IMG/VR virus record: IMGVR_UViG_3300045970_000455
Span: 1 to 64,000 of that record
DNA: 64,000 bases
Direction: 5' to 3' (one strand)
Origin: a virus
Below are positions 4,877 through 52,902 of this stretch, in pieces. The translations under genes were made by a program, and so were the position numbers. The notes under the pieces were generated by a model that saw only the letters and a program-made list of their open reading frames with translations, did no database searches and was not told the origin of the DNA. The stretch's first letter is position 1. Each line of letters starts with the position of its first letter.

Positions 4877-4905
4877 AGTATAACATATTTAACATTATCT
4901 GTCAA
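4877..4905 (-). promoter_or_regulatory. Sigma70-like promoter giving a leaderless message
   Basis: On the minus strand TTGACA (4900-4905) and TATACT (4877-4882) are 17 nt apart with TGT before the -10. The ATG of the 4410-4871 gene begins only 5 nt after the -10, at the expected transcription start. The promoter overlaps the 3' end of the 4895-5239 gene. Confidence 0.8.
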
Positions 4906-7031: not shown

Positions 7032-8099
7032 TTATGTTGTTTCGTATTTAGATTTGAGTAAGGGCATAAACTGCTGTGCATTATTGCCTATCTTTGTCAG
7101 CGCCCACCTGCCACAGAATTTCATAAAAAATATGCCTATATCAACTGATGCTACATTTTTTCTACCTGTTGTTTCAGCTATTACAATAAGACATTCTTCT
7201 TTTATGTTATCAGGAATCTGCGACAAATCAATGAGCAACCTGTTTAGGTTATATTTATCTTTCACAATGTGCTCTTTTTCGTTGTGATCTATCCATTTCT
7301 GTAACATAAAGTTGTTCCAGTTATACCCTTTATTGTTATCATTATACGCTTCTCGAATGCCAACAGCAGTCTTTGTGCCCTTTTCACGCACACCGGGATA
7401 TGCGCTGAAAATGTTATCAGTCTTATCTCCGCGTATGCATTTAAGAAATAATGCATAGTTATACCAATCGGGGTCGCACACAAATGTTGGGTTAGGTTTT
7501 CCTACCTTGATCTTTGCTGTTGAATCGATTTTGAATTCCAACCGTTTTCCGTTATCATCGTGTATGCCGTCCCGTGTAATACGAATGTCTTTTATAGGAT
7601 CATATATGGTTAGGTTAGGTAACTTTAACAGTTGATAAAAGTCTGAGTCAGAACTAATAAGGATGTGAGTATCTTCGGGATGAGCCTCAATGAATACAGC
7701 AATCATATCATCAGCCTCGGTGTTAGGATTTCTTAACACTGTTATGTTAGTTTGCTGATCAATGAAGTCGACTAAATCGTCGTAAGCGCCCGTTAAAATT
7801 TCGCGGTTTTCTTGCTCTTTTTCAGTCATAGCATCGTAGATCTCCGCACGATTAGCTTTATACGCGGGATATACTTTTTTACGCCACGAATGGCCTTCTA
7901 AATAAAATACAGCATGATCGGCTTTGAATGTGGTCCATTCTTTTTTCATACTATACAGTATAAGATGTAACGCCATTCCTATAGCACTATCTATTCCGAG
8001 TGCAGGATTAGTCATTCTAATCTGCCTATGAAAAAGATTGGCGCCGTCGATATGCAGAAAGATTTTCTTTTTATTGATATTCATGTGACTACTTGACAT
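7032..8099 (-). CDS. rnh: RNase H / 5'-3' exonuclease of the T4 Rnh (FEN-1) family
   Basis: The 355-aa protein shows the flap nuclease signatures: FLHIDGANLF near the N-terminus, YKANRAEIYD, EADDMIA, SSDSDFYQLL and the helix-hairpin-helix entry KCIRGDKTDNI with PGV. These supply the metal-binding aspartates. In T4 this enzyme removes RNA primers from lagging-strand fragments at the replication fork. It is somewhat longer than T4 Rnh (305 aa). Two ATGs are possible (8097-8099 or 15 nt later); neither has a Shine-Dalgarno sequence, and the first lies only 14 nt after the promoter -10. Confidence 0.88.
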   Translation of the reverse strand: MSSSHMNINKKKIFLHIDGANLFHRQIRMTNPALGIDSAIGMALHLILYSMKKEWTTFKADHAVFYLEGHSWRKKVYPAYKANRAEIYDAMTEKEQENREILTGAYDDLVDFIDQQTNITVLRNPNTEADDMIAVFIEAHPEDTHILISSDSDFYQLLKLPNLTIYDPIKDIRITRDGIHDDNGKRLEFKIDSTAKIKVGKPNPTFVCDPDWYNYALFLKCIRGDKTDNIFSAYPGVREKGTKTAVGIREAYNDNNKGYNWNNFMLQKWIDHNEKEHIVKDKYNLNRLLIDLSQIPDNIKEECLIVIAETTGRKNVASVDIGIFFMKFCGRWALTKIGNNAQQFMPLLKSKYETT

Positions 8100-8113
8100 T
8101 ATACGGTTTATAT

Positions 8114-8142
8114 ATTATACTACACACTGGCTAAACTGTCAA
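8114..8142 (-). promoter_or_regulatory. Consensus sigma70 promoter
   Basis: On the minus strand TTGACA (8137-8142) and TATAAT (8114-8119) are separated by 17 nt, a perfect consensus. It drives rnh and the 6525-7025 gene, with a predicted leader of only about 7 nt. The remaining gap 8143-8213 shows no gene. Confidence 0.85.
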
Positions 8143-8957: not shown

Positions 8958-9803
8958 TTATGTCGCCCATGCGTTGCGAAAAAGTGGAACCTGAAGCCTA
9001 TCGCTATACCTTAATCCATATCTCATTGCCATTAGTGCCACATTTTTATTATTTAATGTATATACGCTTTCTACTCCGCCCACTGGCATTAAATATACAG
9101 GTCCTTTAAATCCTGCACTGGTATACATGTCTATTGTTTTTAGTGCTTCCTGACAGTCATCCTCGGTGGCTATTACAAACTTCAGATAGGTATATCCTAT
9201 CTCTTGATATTGACGTATAATATCGGGGCGGATTGCTACAGCTCGATCTTCACCTGAACAACTAAGTTTTGGACTAACCGAAAATGTTAATGCTGACTGG
9301 TTTCGTCTTACATTTACCCAGTCTTTTAAAAAATAAACAAAACTTGTGTGTAACTCTTGTGTGCCGTTTGTTTCAAATGTTAGTTCTTTAAGCCCTATCA
9401 TCTCTGGCTGTCGTAATAAATCGGGATATGCTTTCTGCCACCCCAATAACGGCTCCCCGCCTGTGATTACAAGATGTTCATTGTTCCACTCGTTAAATGG
9501 TAATAGTTCCATCATCCGTTTAGCTATGCCAGATACTTCCATCATTGGGCTAAGGTCTTTAAATCGTGGATCCCAAGATGCATAACTATCACAACCTGTA
9601 GAAACTAACGGTAGTTCATTATAGATACGATATTTATTTGGATCGACTGATAATGCTTCAGTTGATTTTTCTCCTGCAGGCATTCCGAATCCCTTGCAAG
9701 AAAAATTGCAGCCGAATGTTCTTAAGAAGATACTTGGTACCCCCATAAACCGGCCTTCTCCCTGTATTGAGTAGAATAGTTCTGCTATTTTAATCTTCGA
9801 CAT
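8958..9803 (-). CDS. queE: QueE-like radical SAM enzyme (7-carboxy-7-deazaguanine synthase family)
   Basis: The 281-aa protein opens with ELFYSIQGEGRFMGVPSIFLRTFGC, the QueE signature, and has GGEPLL (residues 115-120) for SAM binding. QueE converts 6-carboxytetrahydropterin to 7-carboxy-7-deazaguanine, on the way to preQ0. The cluster cysteines are unusual: Cys32 and Cys36 (GCNFSC) are followed by GFGMP rather than the third cysteine; the likely third ligand is Cys71 in STGCDSYASWD. I recall the same arrangement in T4-like aquatic phage homologues. It overlaps the upstream 9790-10149 gene by 14 nt and shares its promoter at 10174-10202. Confidence 0.82.
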   Translation of the reverse strand: MSKIKIAELFYSIQGEGRFMGVPSIFLRTFGCNFSCKGFGMPAGEKSTEALSVDPNKYRIYNELPLVSTGCDSYASWDPRFKDLSPMMEVSGIAKRMMELLPFNEWNNEHLVITGGEPLLGWQKAYPDLLRQPEMIGLKELTFETNGTQELHTSFVYFLKDWVNVRRNQSALTFSVSPKLSCSGEDRAVAIRPDIIRQYQEIGYTYLKFVIATEDDCQEALKTIDMYTSAGFKGPVYLMPVGGVESVYTLNNKNVALMAMRYGLRYSDRLQVPLFRNAWAT

Positions 9804-18081: not shown

Positions 18082-18110
18082 AGTATACGACATTTTTTGC
18101 AAAATGTCAA
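18082..18110 (-). promoter_or_regulatory. Sigma70-like promoter with an overlapping dyad
   Basis: On the minus strand TTGACA (18105-18110) and TATACT (18082-18087) are 17 nt apart. A perfect 8-bp dyad, GACATTTT (18089-18096) and AAAATGTC (18101-18108), spans the spacer and part of the -35, so a repressor or a hairpin could compete with RNA polymerase. It drives the clamp gene. Confidence 0.82.
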
Positions 18111-21369: not shown

Positions 21370-21398
21370 AGTATAACTGTAATATTTTAGAAAGTCAA
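21370..21398 (-). promoter_or_regulatory. Sigma70-like promoter
   Basis: On the minus strand TTGACT (21393-21398) and TATACT (21370-21375) are 17 nt apart, starting directly after the iscA stop codon. It drives the dsbA-gp43 unit, separating early replication genes from the late operon upstream. Confidence 0.8.
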
Positions 21399-31383: not shown

Positions 31384-31821
31384 TTATAAACTCAATAGAA
31401 CTGAATCAACTTGGCCCCATTGCCAGTTTTGCCATTGGGTGGTTGTATCGATTGCCTGTATATAATCACGTGTAAGTACCGCACGTAGATATACAAAGTT
31501 TCCAATAAACGTTACTGCTGTAGATCCTGTGTCGCCACCGTTTGAACCAGTGGGGTCAAGTGCGTTTACGGGGAATGTTAGAAACTGAGTATTTGTTGCG
31601 CCGGTAGGATTTAAACTTATCCAAAACCAATCTTCTGGTTGAGGGACTAACGCCAGTGTTCCCTGTATTCCTACACCGCCAACAAGATTTTGATAAATCA
31701 GCTGAACTGTTGCCAATCCATCTGTATATCCATAGTATGCATTTCCGCGTATAGGATCGCCTACAACATTCCATTTAGTGCCCGTGTTCGGCATCATATT
31801 TACACTTTTTCGAATTGCCAT
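31384..31821 (-). CDS. Putative virion structural protein, 145 aa
   Basis: A beta-rich protein (YGYTDGLATVQLIYQNLVGGVGIQ, QPEDWFWISLNPTG) of the type that accompanies fibre genes in T4-like aquatic phages. First gene after late box 31844-31851, with AAGGA before the ATG. No specific role is recognised. Confidence 0.65.
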   Translation of the reverse strand: MAIRKSVNMMPNTGTKWNVVGDPIRGNAYYGYTDGLATVQLIYQNLVGGVGIQGTLALVPQPEDWFWISLNPTGATNTQFLTFPVNALDPTGSNGGDTGSTAVTFIGNFVYLRAVLTRDYIQAIDTTTQWQNWQWGQVDSVLLSL

Positions 31822-31843
31822 GTTAATCCTTCTGTATTTTAAG

Positions 31844-31851
31844 TATTTATC
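31844..31851 (-). promoter_or_regulatory. T4-type late promoter box GATAAATA
   Basis: Lies 22 nt upstream of the 31384-31821 ATG and drives the fibre run 31821-28634. It sits right after the clpA terminator. Confidence 0.75.
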
Positions 31852-31898
31852 AAATAATAATCAGATTTAATATGGTATGGAATACCTAAATACGAGCC

Positions 31899-31924
31899 AA
31901 AAATAAAGGGGCATAAGCCCCTTT
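31899..31924 (-). terminator. Rho-independent terminator after the ClpA-like gene
   Basis: AAAGGGGC (31905-31912) and GCCCCTTT (31917-31924) form an 8-bp stem with an ATAA loop; on the minus strand ATTTTT follows. It starts 2 nt after the stop of the ClpA-like gene. Confidence 0.85.
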
Positions 31925-31925
31925 A

Positions 31926-34139
31926 TTAGTTTAGCATATCTATGTTTTCTTGTATGCGTTCAGATACGATAACAGATATATCATCGTCTACAACGGACAC
32001 AACAACATGGCCGCCGTCTTTTAGTTTACCGAACAAGATTTCTTTCGATAGCGGTTTCTTGAGTTTTGTTTCAGCAAGCCTCTCAAACGGTCTTGCACCC
32101 ATTAGTGGATCTAGTCCGTTTGTTGCTAACCAATCACGCGCCTCAGATGTTACGTTAATAGTGATGTTTCTAGGTTCCAACATCAGCTCTGTCTTTTCTA
32201 TCTCTGAGTTAACAATAAGCCGCATTTCAGGAAGGCCTAACTTGTTAAACTTAATAGTGGCATCTAACCTATTTCTAAACTCGGGTGTGAACAGTCTCTT
32301 TAACTCTACATCCACCGCACCACTGTTGTCTTGGTTACCAAAGCCTATGCGCTTTCTTTCTGCATCTGCTGCACCTGCGTTGGCTGACATAATCAATATA
32401 ACATTTGAAAAGTCTACCGTTTTACCTTTGCTTGACGTTAGCCTGCCCGCATCCATAACCTGCAATAATACAGAGAATATATCGGGTGATGCTTTTTCTA
32501 TTTCATCTAACAACAATACGCAGTTAGGATGAGCATCAATTTCTGCAATAAGTTGCCCTTCTCCCATCTTACCTTCGCCGTGGCCTACATAACCGGGAGG
32601 CGCACCTATTAGTTTGGAAATAGTGTGTTTTTCCATGTATTCCGACATGTCAAACCGCACTAGCTTAACACCGAGCAGTTCTGCCAACTTCTGTGCTGCA
32701 AAAGTTTTACCGCTACCTGTTGGTCCCGTAAATAAGAAACTACCAATCGGCTTGACAGGGTTTCGTAAACCTGCTTTTGCCATGTAGATTGCTTCAGTTA
32801 ATGCTTCGATTGCCGCATCCTGACCATACACCTTGTTCTTAAGTTTTGGTTCTAAGTTAGCAAGTTCGTCATTTGCCTTTATGTCAATCATATCTTCGGG
32901 CATGTGAGCAATCTTTGCTGCTTGCTTAAGAATATGCTGTAATGTTACGGTAGGAGATTCTTCTAACTTAGCAACTGCACCAGCAGCATCCATAATATCG
33001 ATTGCCTTATCTGGGAAGAACTTAGTTTTCAGATACCTATCTGCTAAATCTACACAAAGATCGGTGGTGCCTACGTCATACGAAATCTTGTGAAACTTCT
33101 CATAGTGTTTCTGTAATCCGCTCAGGATAAGTTTAGTTTCTGCAGCGGTGGGTTGATTAATGTCATACTTCTGGAATCTACGCAGCAGAGCCTTGTCCTT
33201 TTCAAAGTGTTCATGAAACTCGTCGTACGTGGTTGCACCAACGCACATTAACTGCCCCTTGGCAAGCATAGGCTTTAGTAAGTTGCCGGCATCCATTGTG
33301 CCGCCACTACCTGCACCAGCGCCCAATATCATGTGAATCTCGTCGATAAACATAATACAGTTGCCTAGCTTTTTAACTTCTTCGAGCACACCTTTAAGTC
33401 GCTCTTCGAAATCACCTCTAAACTTAGTCCCTGCCAAAAGTGCGCCAATGTCTAAACTGTACACCACTTTATCGTGCAATGCTTTTGGCACTTCTTTATT
33501 GACAATCTTTAATGCCAATCCTTCTGCAAGTGCTGTCTTACCTACACCTGGTTCACCCACATACACAACATTGTTTTTCTTGCGTCTTGCTAAAATCTCA
33601 ATCGTATCTGCTACTTCTTTTGCCCTGCCAATCACGGGATCGATTGTTCCGTCTGTAGCTTCTTTATTTAAGTTCAGTGCGTATAGTGATAGCGGGCTTT
33701 CGTTTGCTGCTGGCTTGTCGCCTGTCTTTCTTAGATGTGCAATGATCTTTTCTCTTGTTACGCCGTGCTTTGCAAGAAAGTAATGAGAGTGACTTGTTTC
33801 TTCACTCAGAATGCTGAGTAAAACTGCTTCACTTGTTAGTTCTGTTCTGCCGCTAAACATTAACTGAGTTAATGCCCTTTGCATTGTGCGCTGAACAACA
33901 CTTGTTCTTTTTGCAGGAACATCTTTCAGTGTGTCTGGCTTCTTAAGTGCAGGGTCACCTAAGAATGTAATGACATCTGTTTTGATTTTTGCGGGCTGGG
34001 AACCAACTGCTACGATCAGTTCGTTTACATCTTTTTCGTGTAACAATGATAACAGAATGTGTTCCACTGTTATATATTCGTGGTTGTTATCGTTAGCAAT
34101 ACCGACTGCACGCGAAAACATCTTATCTACTTTACTCAT
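31926..34139 (-). CDS. clpA: ClpA-like AAA+ unfoldase
   Basis: The 737-aa protein has a Clp N-domain (MSKVDKMFSRAVGIANDN... through about residue 140), AAA domain 1 with Walker A GEPGVGKTALAEGLA and Walker B IMFIDEIHMI, and AAA domain 2 with GPTGSGKTFAAQKLA and VLLLDEIEKA. RKRIGFGNQDNS (about residue 600) aligns with the E. coli ClpA ClpP-binding loop (KSIGLIHQDNS) and keeps the required I-G-F tripeptide. It is close in size to ClpA (758 aa). ClpA threads substrates into ClpP for proteolysis, and a ClpP gene is present at 52312-52902. It follows dnaJ in the same unit and ends at a terminator. Confidence 0.92.
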   Translation of the reverse strand: MSKVDKMFSRAVGIANDNNHEYITVEHILLSLLHEKDVNELIVAVGSQPAKIKTDVITFLGDPALKKPDTLKDVPAKRTSVVQRTMQRALTQLMFSGRTELTSEAVLLSILSEETSHSHYFLAKHGVTREKIIAHLRKTGDKPAANESPLSLYALNLNKEATDGTIDPVIGRAKEVADTIEILARRKKNNVVYVGEPGVGKTALAEGLALKIVNKEVPKALHDKVVYSLDIGALLAGTKFRGDFEERLKGVLEEVKKLGNCIMFIDEIHMILGAGAGSGGTMDAGNLLKPMLAKGQLMCVGATTYDEFHEHFEKDKALLRRFQKYDINQPTAAETKLILSGLQKHYEKFHKISYDVGTTDLCVDLADRYLKTKFFPDKAIDIMDAAGAVAKLEESPTVTLQHILKQAAKIAHMPEDMIDIKANDELANLEPKLKNKVYGQDAAIEALTEAIYMAKAGLRNPVKPIGSFLFTGPTGSGKTFAAQKLAELLGVKLVRFDMSEYMEKHTISKLIGAPPGYVGHGEGKMGEGQLIAEIDAHPNCVLLLDEIEKASPDIFSVLLQVMDAGRLTSSKGKTVDFSNVILIMSANAGAADAERKRIGFGNQDNSGAVDVELKRLFTPEFRNRLDATIKFNKLGLPEMRLIVNSEIEKTELMLEPRNITINVTSEARDWLATNGLDPLMGARPFERLAETKLKKPLSKEILFGKLKDGGHVVVSVVDDDISVIVSERIQENIDMLN

Positions 34140-34146
34140 GATATCC

Positions 34147-34962
34147 TTAAATGTTAAATATATCTCTATGCGGCAATGTCTTTAATAATGCCAGCTGTTC
34201 TTCTTTAAGATCCCGCGGTGTTGTGATTGTAATCCGTATTAGCAAATCACCTAACCTATCTGTCTCGGGATTCTTCATACCTTTTCCAGCGAGTCTAACA
34301 ATCTGTCCATTCTGAATACCCGCCGGTATAGTAAACTGTAGTATAGCACGATCTAAGTGTGTAATCATAGCATTCACGCTCAGTATGGCCTCGATAGAAC
34401 TTATCTCTACATCTACTAGTAAATCGTCGTTTGATCTCTTAAACTTAGTGTGAGGTTGAACCTCGATAATATACAATGCCGAATCAATAACAAACTTCGT
34501 ACCTGATCGAATACCTGCAGGTAGATTAATAGTTTGGTCTGACGGTAGTTTAATCTGTTTGCCAACATACGCATCTTCTAAAGATATTGTTATTAAATGC
34601 CGCGGCTGTTGTCTTGGTTGATATTGATGCCCGAATATCTCACCGAATGGTGAATTTCCCCTAGAAAATATACTAGCGAATATGTCGTTGATATCCCCGG
34701 CAGGATTCACGCCTTGTGACCATTGCGGTTGTTGCGATGGGTCTTGGTGGCCGAACTGATCGTAGCGTGCTCTCTTTGCTGGATCGCTAAGACAATCATT
34801 GGCTTCATTGAGTTCTTTGAACTTTGCCTCTGCTGCTACTTTGGCATCACCTGTATGTCTATCAGGGTGATGTTGCATGGCTGATTTCCGATATGCTTTT
34901 TTTATATCATCGGCTGTGGCAGTCTTCTCTACGCCGAGGACTGCATAATAGTCTTGTTTCAT
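34147..34962 (-). CDS. dnaJ: DnaJ-family co-chaperone (CbpA type, no zinc finger)
   Basis: The 271-aa protein has a J-domain ([23 protein letters not shown]) with HPD at residues about 32-34, a Gly/Ser-poor linker, and two C-terminal beta substrate-binding regions ([34 protein letters not shown]). The CxxCxGxG zinc repeats are absent, as in CbpA. J-proteins stimulate host DnaK and deliver substrates. It lies between an IF-1-like gene and the ClpA-like gene. Confidence 0.92.
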
Positions 34963-34966
34963 TATA

Positions 34967-35074
34967 TTACTTTTTTCCGTAAAAGAGTTTACACCAAAAG
35001 TGCTCTATCCACGAAAATATTACTACGAAGGGGAATATAAAGATTAGATAGAGTATATCTAACAGTATATTCAT
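34967..35074 (-). CDS. Small membrane peptide, 35 aa
   Basis: From ATG 35072-35074 the frame reads [19 protein letters not shown], then a Trp/His/Cys-containing end with a basic tail (LFYGKK). It has a single hydrophobic helix (residues 3-22). It overlaps the IF-1 stop by TAATG and ends 4 nt before the dnaJ ATG, filling the gap exactly, which supports it being real. Function unknown. Confidence 0.55.
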
Positions 35075-35289
35075 TAAAATCTGTAAATAATTCTACCGAG
35101 ATTTAAGTCGTACACGCTCATCTCGACTTCAACCAAATCGTCTAGGATGATATGAATATTGTTCTTTCTAATCTTACCGCTAACTACAGCATTCATTGTA
35201 TGCCCGCTGTCTAGCTTCACTTTAAATCTTGCGCCAGGGCTCGCATCAGTAACACGTCCTTTAACAACAATAGTATCATCTTTAGCCAA
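35074..35289 (-). CDS. infA: Translation initiation factor IF-1 homologue
   Basis: The 71-aa product aligns with E. coli IF-1 (72 aa) end to end: MAKDDTIVVKGRVTDASPG versus MAKEDNIEMQGTVLETLPN, then F-x-V-x-L-x-(S/N)GH, SGKIRKNNIHI versus SGKMRKNYIRI, and YDLNLGRI versus YDLSKGRI. This is the OB-fold protein that occupies the ribosomal A site during initiation. It is transcribed from 35541-35569 and probably also from the late promoter 36661. A general OB-fold RNA chaperone is the only other reading, and the match across the whole length argues against it. Confidence 0.88.
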   Translation of the reverse strand: MAKDDTIVVKGRVTDASPGARFKVKLDSGHTMNAVVSGKIRKNNIHIILDDLVEVEMSVYDLNLGRIIYRF

Positions 35290-35293
35290 TTTA

Positions 35294-36052
35294 TTATCCT
35301 TTATATTTAATTTCTGTATCTCGAAGTAACATTATTGTTCCGTCGGATTGCCTACTTACACATAGAAAACTATCTATAGGTAGCACATCATAGTTCCCTA
35401 ACATTCCATTAAGAATAGTTGCTTCGATAGGTTTATCAAATAACCTAAACGCCGATTCAGCCAAGAAGTTTCTATTTATAACTGCATCGTATTCACCGAC
35501 ATCAACTACCTCGGCAACCATTTGTCTACTACCTGTGCCTAGTATAACATTGTTGTTGTCAAAAGTCAAGTAAAGTAAATGTGAATCCTGTAAAAATTCA
35601 GAGATTTCTTCTTTCTTAGAGGTCTTCATAAATTCGTCCTTTGTTGTATAATCAGCCGGGTTAGATGCCACAAAATCAAATAGCATAGGATCAGATAAAT
35701 CAAACTCACGTGAGTCAGATAGATATGTCCTTACCTTCCACTTCAACTTTCCCGAAACATTTTCTATGTCTTTTACAAGTGCTACAAACTTATCAGGAAA
35801 TGTTTTATCTCTTTTTAGTTCCACAAATACAAGATAGTTACCGTCCTTGTCTGTGTTAGGACTTACTTCGGCGTCGAGTATGTTAATGTAGCTTCGTTGA
35901 ATAAAGGTGTTTAAATCTTCAGCAGGATCTTTATCTAACAAATAGAATGCCACAACAATAACATCTTCTTCTTTACCTGCCTTTGGTTCAAACTCATCTA
36001 TAGACACCACGGGTAATATCATTTTTACCAAATCTTCGTTTTTTAAGCTCAT
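35294..36052 (-). CDS. Conserved hypothetical protein, 252 aa
   Basis: The N-terminal domain (residues 1-110) is alpha/beta with VVAFYLLDKDPAEDLNTFIQRSYINILDAEVSPN, a ferredoxin-like pattern also seen in T4-like phage proteins of unknown role. The rest is mixed, with a small beta domain near the end. It contains the internal promoter 35541-35569, which feeds the IF-1 gene. Function unknown. Confidence 0.65.
   Translation of the reverse strand: MSLKNEDLVKMILPVVSIDEFEPKAGKEEDVIVVAFYLLDKDPAEDLNTFIQRSYINILDAEVSPNTDKDGNYLVFVELKRDKTFPDKFVALVKDIENVSGKLKWKVRTYLSDSREFDLSDPMLFDFVASNPADYTTKDEFMKTSKKEEISEFLQDSHLLYLTFDNNNVILGTGSRQMVAEVVDVGEYDAVINRNFLAESAFRLFDKPIEATILNGMLGNYDVLPIDSFLCVSRQSDGTIMLLRDTEIKYKG
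35541..35569 (-). promoter_or_regulatory. Sigma70-like promoter inside a gene, upstream of IF-1
   Basis: On the minus strand TTGACT (35564-35569) and TATACT (35541-35546) are separated by 17 nt, with TGT before the -10. It lies in the 35294-36052 coding region about 245 nt ahead of the IF-1 ATG. The full class match suggests a real early promoter for IF-1, dnaJ and clpA. Confidence 0.65.
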
Positions 36053-36642
36053 ACACCGCCCTGCTGTTGTTCATCGCCTGGTTGGGCGGCCATATCGGGC
36101 GGTTGACCGCCCATATCGCCTGTACCGTCATCCACTGCTGCATTTGGATCTTCTGCAGGAACTTCATCATATGCACCTGCTAACTCTTCATTTGTATCTT
36201 CTATATCTTGCTGAATAATGTCGTCTATATTTTCAAGGCCGCCCTTTATATACCGTATAGGCATGTCTATAGTAACAAGCCACACATCGTGGTCTGCCAT
36301 CTTTGCTTTTTTAGATTGTATATCTGACCAATCTTCAGGACCACGCACCTTAACAGGTTTGCTGAATGTGCCTTTTCTAAAGTTAACAAGAGCACCTAAC
36401 TTTGTTAATCTTAGTCCTGCCTTTGGGTCAGGCATCATAGAATAAGGATACATAAACGTCACCTTAAACCAATACCTGCTAATGATAGGACCTTCAACTA
36501 TTTCGCCTAGTATCCAGTTTTTATATGCAAATAACTCTGCATTATCTAACGTCCGTTCAAACTCAATAAGCATATCAAGTATGCCTTCACCCTTGGATAT
36601 TCCTACCAAAGTGGATTTTATTGTATCAAGATCTGTAGCCAT
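36049..36642 (-). CDS. Conserved T4-like hypothetical protein, 197 aa
   Basis: Contains a block NAELFAYKNWILGEIVEGPIISRYWFKVTFMYPYSMMPDPK, a family I recall in aquatic T4-like phages without a known function. The last 45 residues are low-complexity acidic/Gly/Gln (GQPPDMAAQPGDEQQQGG). The first gene after the late box 36661-36668; it overlaps the next gene by ATGA. Confidence 0.65.
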   Translation of the reverse strand: MATDLDTIKSTLVGISKGEGILDMLIEFERTLDNAELFAYKNWILGEIVEGPIISRYWFKVTFMYPYSMMPDPKAGLRLTKLGALVNFRKGTFSKPVKVRGPEDWSDIQSKKAKMADHDVWLVTIDMPIRYIKGGLENIDDIIQQDIEDTNEELAGAYDEVPAEDPNAAVDDGTGDMGGQPPDMAAQPGDEQQQGGV

Positions 36643-36660
36643 TTCTGTCCTCGTTTTTAG

Positions 36661-36668
36661 TATTTATC
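36661..36668 (-). promoter_or_regulatory. T4-type late promoter box GATAAATA
   Basis: Lies 18 nt before the 36049-36642 ATG, with GAGGA in the leader. It may transcribe through to clpA, so the chaperone block can be made both early (35541) and late. Confidence 0.75.
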
Positions 36669-36722
36669 ATATTTTATTCAGTTGCGTATTATTGTTGTTT
36701 TTATTTTTTATTTAGGAATTTG

Positions 36723-36730
36723 CATAAATA
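36723..36730 (+). promoter_or_regulatory. Possible late promoter box CATAAATA
   Basis: A CATAAATA on the plus strand lies 112 nt before the PhoH start, in a 199-nt divergent gap. The rest of the gap is AT-rich with no other promoter of either class that I could find. Confidence 0.4.
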
Positions 36731-36841
36731 CTATTACATGACATCAATACAAATTATAGATGCATTTCACACTATCGATATTATTCTTATATCGATACTA
36801 TCCGTTCGTTCTAAAATTATTAACTATTTGGAGTACTCACT

Positions 36842-37588
36842 TTGAGCAAAAATCGTAAAATGGCAAAAGTATCTCATCCGTCCCACACAACCTTTAAACC
36901 AGCAACAGAACATGTATCAAATGTTGTTAAACTAGGTAATAGAAATTATAAGAAAGCTGAACTACTTCCACGCAATACAGCGCAGGAAGCATATGTAGAA
37001 TCGTTGTTAGAAAAAAGAATGGTTTTTGCTGTTGGGCCTGCAGGAACAGGAAAAACTATGTTGGCGGTTATACGGGCAATACAGGCGTTAAGATCACACG
37101 AAATAAGCAGGATTATTCTTACACGCCCTGCTGTTAGTGTAGACGAAAAACACGGATTCCTGCCAGGCACACTAAACGAAAAAATGGAACCGTGGACAAG
37201 ACCTATCTTTGATGTGTTTGAAGAGTATTATGGATTAATAGAAACTAAGGCAATGTTGGAAGATGGTACAATAGAGATTGCTCCTTTAGGTTTTATGAGA
37301 GGTAGGACATTTAAGGATGCTTATATTATTGCAGACGAAATGCAAAATGCAACACCAGATCAAATGAAGATGTTGCTAACAAGAATAGGTACAGGAAGCA
37401 GCATGATACTAACGGGCGATCTTCACCAGCACGATCGCGGCTTTGATAAAAACGGGTTAAAGGATTTTATTGATAGACTTGCGTTAAATAAGAAAAGCTC
37501 TATGTGCATATGTAAGTTTGGTAGAGAACACATTGAGAGAGATCCGCTGGTAGCAGATGTATTAGAAATATATGGAGAGTTAGACTAA
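36842..37588 (+). CDS. phoH: PhoH-like ATPase, TTG start
   Basis: The 248-aa protein holds a P-loop GPAGTGKTMLAVIRA (about residues 63-77), TRPAVSVDEKHGFLPGTLNEKM, a Walker B-type IIADEMQNATP and a final SSMCICKFGREHIERDP, all typical of PhoH. PhoH is common in aquatic phages; proposed roles include RNA metabolism and phosphate stress. The TTG at 36842 is chosen because GGAG (36830-36833) lies 8 nt upstream; the next ATG would be 18 nt further on. Confidence 0.93.
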   Translation: MSKNRKMAKVSHPSHTTFKPATEHVSNVVKLGNRNYKKAELLPRNTAQEAYVESLLEKRMVFAVGPAGTGKTMLAVIRAIQALRSHEISRIILTRPAVSVDEKHGFLPGTLNEKMEPWTRPIFDVFEEYYGLIETKAMLEDGTIEIAPLGFMRGRTFKDAYIIADEMQNATPDQMKMLLTRIGTGSSMILTGDLHQHDRGFDKNGLKDFIDRLALNKKSSMCICKFGREHIERDPLVADVLEIYGELD

Positions 37589-37618
37589 CTGCCTTCACCC
37601 TTAAGTATAAAATAAAAT

Positions 37619-37626
37619 GATAAATA
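37619..37626 (+). promoter_or_regulatory. T4-type late promoter box GATAAATA
   Basis: Lies 28 nt before the ATG of the 37655-37960 gene, whose leader has AAGGGGA. It drives the late plus-strand run 37655-40803. Confidence 0.78.
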
Positions 37627-37654
37627 TATAATATTTGTCATTAAGGGGATTTAA

Positions 37655-37960
37655 ATGAAATTAAGCGATATACTTAGGGGTGTAGCAGACAGAATGGACA
37701 GCGAGCCCTCTGCCGATGTATGCTCGGCTGTATCTCCTACCAATACTGCCGAACCTGAAGGAACACCTACTGATAAGTTTCTTCCTCCACTGCAACTAAA
37801 ACTAGAACTATTAAAAAAGGCATCTGGTGTAAAAAGTGTGTATGATGAAGAAAATGATGATCAAGAAGAATACAATAAAATGGTTCAAGAACTCAGAAAA
37901 AATGCTGGACTAAGTCCTATAATGAGTGAACTTCAAGATGACGATTTGTTAGATATATAA
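37655..37960 (+). CDS. Late protein, 101 aa, MKLSDILRGV start
   Basis: Starts MKLSDILRGVADRMDSEPS, then an acidic linker, a PPLQLKLELLKKASGVKSVYDE segment and an acidic end DDDLLDI. I believe the family is conserved in T4-like aquatic phages with unknown function. The N-terminus resembles the 52949 and 6214 products. It precedes a fibre gene by 3 nt and is late-promoted, so a virion protein is likely. Confidence 0.7.
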   Translation: MKLSDILRGVADRMDSEPSADVCSAVSPTNTAEPEGTPTDKFLPPLQLKLELLKKASGVKSVYDEENDDQEEYNKMVQELRKNAGLSPIMSELQDDDLLDI

Positions 37961-51503: not shown

Positions 51504-51532
51504 AGTATAACAGTAACTAAGTATTTTGTCAA
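51504..51532 (-). promoter_or_regulatory. Sigma70-like promoter
   Basis: On the minus strand TTGACA (51527-51532) and TATACT (51504-51509) are 17 nt apart with TGT before the -10, in the 70-nt gap before the 51251-51481 gene. Confidence 0.82.
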
Positions 51533-52311: not shown

Positions 52312-52902
52312 TCACCTCTTAGAAATAATATGGTCGATTAAACCTATGTCTAATGCTGTTTCTGGTCTGACAAAGTTATCTCTATCTGTAAGTTTTACCA
52401 TTGTTTCGTAGTCTGTCTTACCATATGTATAATCAGCCAACATTTGATTTAACTTTTTCTTTAGATACAGTGTTTCGTTTGTATGAATTTCGATATCAGA
52501 TGCTTGTCCATGATAGCCGGCAAGCACCTGATGGATCATAACTGTAGAGTTTGGTAGGCAATATCTTTTTCCCTTTTCGCCCGCTGCCAATAATAGCGAT
52601 CCCATGCTTGCTGCCATACCTGTTGCATATGTTGCAATGTTTGGTTTAACATAGTTAAAAATATCAATCATTGCCAATCCTGCATTTACAGATCCGCCGG
52701 GTGAGTTAATATACACATTAATATCTTGTTCTGCGTTTTCAGCTTCGAGAAACAATATTTGTGCAATAACAAGCTCAGACATATGCTCCGTAACTTCTCC
52801 ATTAATAAATATAAGTCGTTCCTTTAGCAACCTGCTAAAAATATCATACGACCTTTCTCCACGCGGAGTATTTTCGACTACCATCGGCACTAAATGAGAC
52901 AT
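52312..52902 (-). CDS. clpP: ClpP serine protease
   Basis: The 196-aa protein is full length for ClpP and keeps the catalytic triad: Ser99 in GMAASMG, His124 in MIHQ and Asp175 in [16 protein letters not shown] (66-75) forms the substrate-binding strand. ClpP assembles into a tetradecamer and needs an ATPase; the phage ClpA-like protein (31926-34139) has the matching IGF loop. AAAGG precedes the ATG. The promoter is not clear. Confidence 0.95.

Follow-up and report, generated by a model that had tools for sequence, protein, structure and literature searches.

Phage-Encoded Initiation Factor IF-1 with Lineage-Wide Changes at Three Reported 30S Contacts, a Conserved Predicted Promoter within the Upstream Gene, and a Constant Gene Order

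The viral DNA designated here as the window (the whole analysed stretch of 64,000 nt, positions 1 to 64,000 of IMG/VR record IMGVR_UViG_3300045970_000455, a record of 75,865 bases) has an infA gene, and it is close to certain that its product is a genuine bacterial-type translation initiation factor IF-1. Phage-encoded IF1 as such is already published, as huge phages are described to encode IF1 and IF3 in the available part of Al-Shayeb et al. 2020 (PMC7162821). Three features seen in the sequence go beyond this: the change at three reported 30S contacts throughout the lineage, the conserved promoter predicted within the upstream gene, and the fixed gene block in which infA lies.

The infA Gene and Its Product

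The infA gene is located at 35074..35289 on the minus strand, starts with TTG, and codes for 71 aa. The motifs SGKIRKN and YDLNLGRI named in the initial annotation are present in this ORF. Its product scored 88.1 bits with TIGR00008 infA, above the curated equivalog cut-off of 61.15, and 64.5 bits with PF01176 (cut-off 30.2); a second run gave 63.6 bits and zero internal stops. All 12 PDB sequences that matched the product at E ≤ 0.001 are IF-1, while phrog_30201, its sole PHROG match, has no named function. The AlphaFold2 model, computed from 18 sequences (window and viral), has five strands and a short helix with a mean pLDDT of 87.9. The Foldseek matches include 9fco_I (TMq 0.95), 4ql5_A (0.92), and 1hr0_W (0.91), with IF1 structures, among them the 30S-bound 9fco_I and 1hr0_W, ranked first and eIF1A/aIF1A next. 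According to the model and Foldseek, a single OB-fold domain extends from end to end of the protein. The end-to-end likeness to IF-1 claimed initially thus holds, with a full-length TIGR00008 match and the fold of IF1 structures.

A match by chance or to another OB-fold protein was ruled out by the TIGR00008 and PF01176 scores, the PDB matches, and the fold. Placement with unrelated OB-fold RNA chaperones, raised in the initial annotation, was not found, as family models, PDB matches, and Foldseek all point to IF1. Median pN/pS of infA, computed for 22 distinct sequences over their last 64 codons, is 0.147; the median pN of 0.119 against a median pS of 0.822 over 231 pairs indicates that synonymous sites are saturated and that the protein is under purifying selection.

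Phylogeny and Occurrence in Viruses

The IF-1 tree, a phylogeny of the kind proposed earlier as a check, has good support at seven of its 158 inner branches. All 22 rows of the lineage are grouped together in it (SH-aLRT 88, not starred), and a starred set (98) consists of these and three other viral rows. The attachment near Gammaproteobacteria is unsupported. Locus L206 was left out of the tree, as no protein was obtained from it. Loci L119-L134, which duplicate contigs already included, were omitted from the tree, the residue counts, and the start-codon count of 29 loci, and identical proteins were merged for the tree, the residue and promoter counts, and the start-codon counts of distinct sequences.

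The first scan of IMG/VR revealed 37 infA loci, of which 29 have ≥70% identity. In a profile-based scan of IMG/VR with 598 candidates, an IF-1 relative was confirmed in at least 545, and IF-1 is hence common there, although some of the matches may be host DNA or prophage. The initial statement that infA is rare in such phages is not supported by this number. In deposited phage records the gene is rare, with a match at E ≤ 0.01 in 35 of 50,697. These 35 include 15 Lak records, Sinorhizobium phage Phosso, and six Bacteroides phages, and also H26, which has the same organism name as H25, and unannotated Listeria, Enterococcus, and Staphylococcus records; in at least one of them (H25), bacterial chromosomal genes lie all round infA. 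In L200 (CAKLQH020000005.1), filed as Acinetobacter phage MD-2021a, infA is situated amid bacterial chromosomal genes such as leuB, leuC, leuD, and truA.

Residues at the 30S Contacts

According to the available part of PMC10913371 (numbering from Met), R41 and R46 of IF1 contact the flipped A1492/A1493, K39 and M42 contact the G530 phosphate, and H35, Y60, R64, and R66 face S12. In the review PMC4611024, as far as available, the disruption of helix-44 pairing is ascribed to Arg64, and 30S binding to Arg69 (E. coli). Published residue numbers were mapped onto the alignment by inference, so that, for example, Arg64 and Arg69 of PMC4611024 are positions 64 and 70.

Three of the reported contacts, positions 35, 46, and 64, are altered together in each of the 22 distinct proteins of the lineage. 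At position 46, Q is present in 21/22 and H in the window protein; at position 64, L in 18/22 and S, M, Q, or N in the others; and at position 35, V in 19/22 and I in 3/22. Bacterial rows have R/K at 46, R/K at 64, and H/Y/T at 35, each in 169 of 170 rows, which were chosen by similarity or best score and do not sample bacteria at random. Eighty of these rows are the 80 most similar to the phage query among at least 587 confirmed candidates, and the remaining 90 are the top 30 by score from each of three phylum samples, in which 95/99, 31/31, and 31/31 genomes had an IF-1 match; the 170 rows comprise 153 distinct ones, and some genomes occur twice. R41, Y60, R66, and R70 are kept in 22/22 lineage proteins and K39 in 21/22, with R in the remaining one. 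Two further positions differ: 44 is N in the lineage and mostly Y/F in bacteria, and 50 is D/N, where bacteria have mostly G. H35, R46, and a basic residue at 64 were treated by us as variant rather than defining residues, lying outside the definition given by the family cut-offs.

Among 52 other viral IF-1s, R/K is retained at 46 in 31 and at 64 in 47. The change at 46 recurs in viruses, and that at 64 does so far less; on the poorly resolved tree, at least 10 changes are required at position 46 and at least five at position 64. As neither R nor K is found at 46 in 21 of these 52 proteins, the change at this position may be drift in phage IF-1s.

The Gene Block and Start Codons

Directly upstream of infA is g252 (35294..36052, minus strand; phrog_13138, 112.5 bits), coding for a virion structural protein, and before it g197 (36049..36642, minus strand; phrog_12928, 107.2 bits), coding for another; relatives of each were found in 57 phage records. 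The neighbours dnaJ and clpA, between which and infA a link was claimed initially, both follow directly downstream. The dnaJ-like co-chaperone (34147..34962, minus strand) has a PF00226 J domain and a PF01556 C-terminal domain, with no match to the zinc-finger domain. The clpA-like AAA+ unfoldase (31926..34139, minus strand) matched phrog_4871 with 810 bits and TIGR02639 ClpA with 855.7 bits, which is under the cut-off of 993.15. It is followed by g145 (31384..31821, minus strand; phrog_13657), to which no function was assigned and which comes after clpA in many infA-block relatives too. The divergent neighbour of the block is phoH (36842..37588, plus strand; phrog_170, 246 bits).

The arrangement phoH(-)/g197/g252/infA/dnaJ/clpA was found in 29/29 close relatives as far as the contigs extend: g252 is directly 5' of infA in 29 and dnaJ 3' of it in 29, with clpA present in 28, g197 in 27, and phoH in 26. 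Where block genes are absent (L002, L003, L016, and L020), the sequence ends, and in L026 phoH, g197, and g252 each appear as several pieces. Five of the eight distant loci (L031-L034 and L037) keep phoH, g197, g252, infA, and clpA, and dnaJ was detected in two of these five.

A Shine-Dalgarno-like AAAGGA (35297..35302, minus strand) is read 7 nt 5' of the infA TTG, and the TAA stop of g252 (35294..35296, minus strand) is 4 nt 5' of it. In many relatives the g252 stop is likewise ≤4 nt before the infA start, which suggests that on a long transcript infA is translationally coupled to g252. The infA start is TTG in 29/29 close viral loci, or 21/21 distinct ones. Among placed relatives, ATG starts dnaJ (21/21), clpA (20/20), g252 (18/18), and g197 (18/18), while TTG, with a strong Shine-Dalgarno sequence, starts phoH in 18/18 as in the window. 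Bacterial infA often starts with TTG as well (11 of the 80 rows and 30 of the 90 rows described above, with seven of the 90 unassigned), and so this start is not special to phage infA. The notion that the conserved TTG is a sign of special autoregulation is weakened by both the phoH and the bacterial starts.

The Predicted Nested Promoter

An internal promoter of infA at 35541-35569 was claimed in the initial annotation, and it gained support in the comparison of relatives. The predicted promoter TTGACT-N17-TATACT (35541..35569, minus strand) lies inside g252, 252 nt before the infA start, and matches 10 of 12 consensus bases. A loose count of promoters in 31800-37700 revealed no excess (14 found vs 17.8 expected), so that the lone match proved nothing by itself. 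The reading as chance that followed from this count was abandoned in view of conservation, the recoding test, and the count of a strict pattern.

A site at the homologous place was found in 20 of 22 distinct sequences (the window and 21 loci), with TTGAC at the -35 place in 18/22 and TTGAA in 2/22. L002 and L011 are without it at this place; their matches are elsewhere, at 86 and 147 nt upstream of infA. Of 245 windows along g252, that of the nine codons at the site has the highest synonymous conservation, and the Leu codon in it is TTG in all 20 rows that have Leu, when this codon makes up 90 of 506 Leu codons in g252 overall. The site has the top mean promoter score among 11,037 aligned positions of seven genes on both strands; against 200 synonymous recodings it scored 9.36, with their mean at 7.16 and their maximum at 7.73 (z 9.0). 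The runner-up position, in g197, is explained by the protein sequence (z 0.4). On the opposite strand, a promoter-like match in clpA, at codon 630 of the window protein, is above synonymous recoding (z 6.1), as are g145 position 12 (z 3.4) and g197 position 17 (z 3.1). In these conservation tests, relatedness among the sequences was ignored.

The strict pattern TTGACW-N17-TAYAMT occurs at eight sites in the window vs 0.20 expected; as it was written after the infA sites were known, the independent count is that of the other seven. These are at 584-612, 4877-4905, 8114-8142, 18082-18110, 21370-21398, and 51504-51532 on the minus strand and 8093-8121 on the plus strand. Seven of the eight sites are 6-40 nt before an ORF start, and the infA site is at 252 nt. 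One is placed 23 nt before a clpS-like gene, one precedes an exonuclease-like gene (7032-8099), and one precedes the ORF that lies ahead of the DNA polymerase gene, so that an early or middle timing of this promoter class is plausible from the last two. The T4-type late promoter TATAAATA showed no excess (eight found vs 9.8 expected). With the site kept in 20/22, a score beyond that of recodings, and an enriched class, infA very probably has its own promoter.

Clp Proteins, Hsp20, and bS21

The link to protein quality control turned out stronger than initially claimed, as ClpP, ClpX, Hsp20-like, and ClpS-like proteins are encoded on the same record. The clpP gene for the Clp protease proteolytic subunit (52312..52902, minus strand) matched PF00574 with E 1.9e-68 and NF001368 with 273.9 bits (cut-off 249). 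ClpX is over its cut-off, and the matches of the ClpS-like (NCBIfam) and Hsp20-like proteins are below theirs. Ribosomal protein bS21 was recognized with 41.8 bits to S21p (cut-off 28.95). The ClpS-like, Hsp20-like, bS21, and ClpX genes are clustered on the minus strand beyond the window (L212 8436-11548; record 71935-75047). ClpP with ClpA, ClpX, and the ClpS-like protein would come close to a complete Clp machine.

Among the records searched, which may be fragments, bS21 was found in 14/18 (in 8/10 of this lineage, including that of the window), ClpP in 12/14 (8/10 of this lineage), and IF3 in 4/18 but in none of the 10 lineage records, including that of the window. With infA and bS21, a translation factor and another translation gene are present on the same phage genome; no tRNA or tmRNA was predicted in the 64-kb window. 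In the viral records G010, G011, and G012 (L010-L012 type), IF3 and bS21 genes are located within a few hundred bases. A QueE-like protein (window 8958-9803, minus strand) was below the NCBIfam cut-offs and may belong to a 7-deazaguanine pathway.

Proposed Role of the Phage IF-1

The protein is a genuine bacterial-type IF-1, which would have been inherited vertically within a lineage of large tailed phages. During infection, its most likely action is to bind the host 30S subunit at the A site and to join in initiation. The retained K39, R41, Y60, R66, and R70 would preserve the binding platform, and the absence of R46, H35, and a basic residue at 64 would alter both the stabilisation of flipped A1492/A1493 and the remodelling of helix 44. 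Through this altered handling, ribosomes with the phage IF-1 may initiate at a different stringency, and the factor probably acts together with the phage bS21. The infA gene would be transcribed in two ways, as part of the block of virion genes and, together with dnaJ and clpA, from the nested promoter, which would be of host sigma-70 type; we infer this co-transcription, its timing, and a benefit to phage mRNAs. A true IF1 that binds the A site and remodels it differently, alongside bS21, is the combined reading that we somewhat favour; counted against it are the lack of IF3 in all 10 lineage records and Pseudomonas phage Paride, which has the block yet is without infA. It is a tentative possibility that the A site is occupied with helix 44 incompletely remodelled, which with bS21 would give a 30S subunit specialised for the phage and a relaxed checkpoint of start codon or subunit joining. 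Beside this stands the observation that the infA and phoH genes of the lineage itself keep UUG starts.

The phage protein could instead do simply the work of host IF1 when host mRNAs or host IF1 run down, with the residue changes as neutral drift. The full length, purifying selection, and most contact residues kept are in agreement with such a supplement, as is the variation of position 46 in other viral IF-1s, and the phage bS21 and Clp partners suggest a general replacement of host parts. We nevertheless consider it rather unlikely, with three contacts changed jointly in 22/22 and each kept by 169/170 of the bacterial rows, while the remainder of the protein is conserved. Competition with host IF1 at the A site, lowering initiation on host mRNAs, seems improbable: a competitor would need the binding residues kept and those for A1492/A1493 and helix 44 lost, as is the case here, and the gene has its own predicted promoter, but phage mRNAs need the same ribosomes and their Shine-Dalgarno sequences look ordinary.

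Activity as an RNA chaperone or transcription antiterminator belongs to E. coli IF1 too, and a main function of this kind off the ribosome would be compatible with an OB fold that has lost some of its 30S contacts. It is very improbable for the phage protein, as an RNA chaperone would not need R41, Y60, R66, and R70 (22/22) or K39 (21/22), and the nearest structures are IF1 and then eIF1A/aIF1A. Phage translation factors are usually regarded as spare host parts. Alteration of the residues that reportedly act on A1492/A1493 and helix 44, with the binding residues kept, hints at an adjustment of host ribosomes over mere copying. The combined reading gives a specific prediction, binding retained and stringency altered, which is addressable with small purified proteins, and Paride, with the same block and infA absent, is a natural comparison.

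Comparison with Known Systems

With bacterial IF-1 the phage protein shares length, OB fold, the SGK-IRKN helix, and the YDL-GRI motif, and it passes both curated cut-offs; it differs at 35, 46, and 64 in 22/22 lineage proteins, and also at 44 and 50. In the huge phages of Al-Shayeb et al. 2020 (PMC7162821), IF1 likewise occurs on large genomes along with a ribosomal protein, for example bS21, but an analysis of IF1 residues, promoter, or gene block was not found in the available part of that paper. Expression of phage bS21 was linked to late replication, with Hsp20 and Clp genes nearby, in the available part of Chen et al. 2022 (PMC9723584). These sets resemble the record of the window in having a phage ribosomal protein of initiation with Hsp20 and Clp neighbours; the terms "initiation factor" and "IF1" are absent from the text of that paper, and infA is here in a block of virion genes and has the predicted nested promoter.

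Paride and its relatives (Arenbergviridae, about 287 kb) have phoH(-), two virion proteins, DnaJ (J-domain), and ClpA in identical order. They differ in the absence of infA, with no Pseudomonas record among the 35 IF-1 matches, and in a hairpin between the virion gene and dnaJ, and no promoter match was found at the place homologous to the nested site. Phosso (469 kb) has an annotated IF-1 and relatives of g252 and ClpA, but its IF-1 is separated by about 7 kb from the relative of g252 and lies next to Clp-domain and MutT-like genes.
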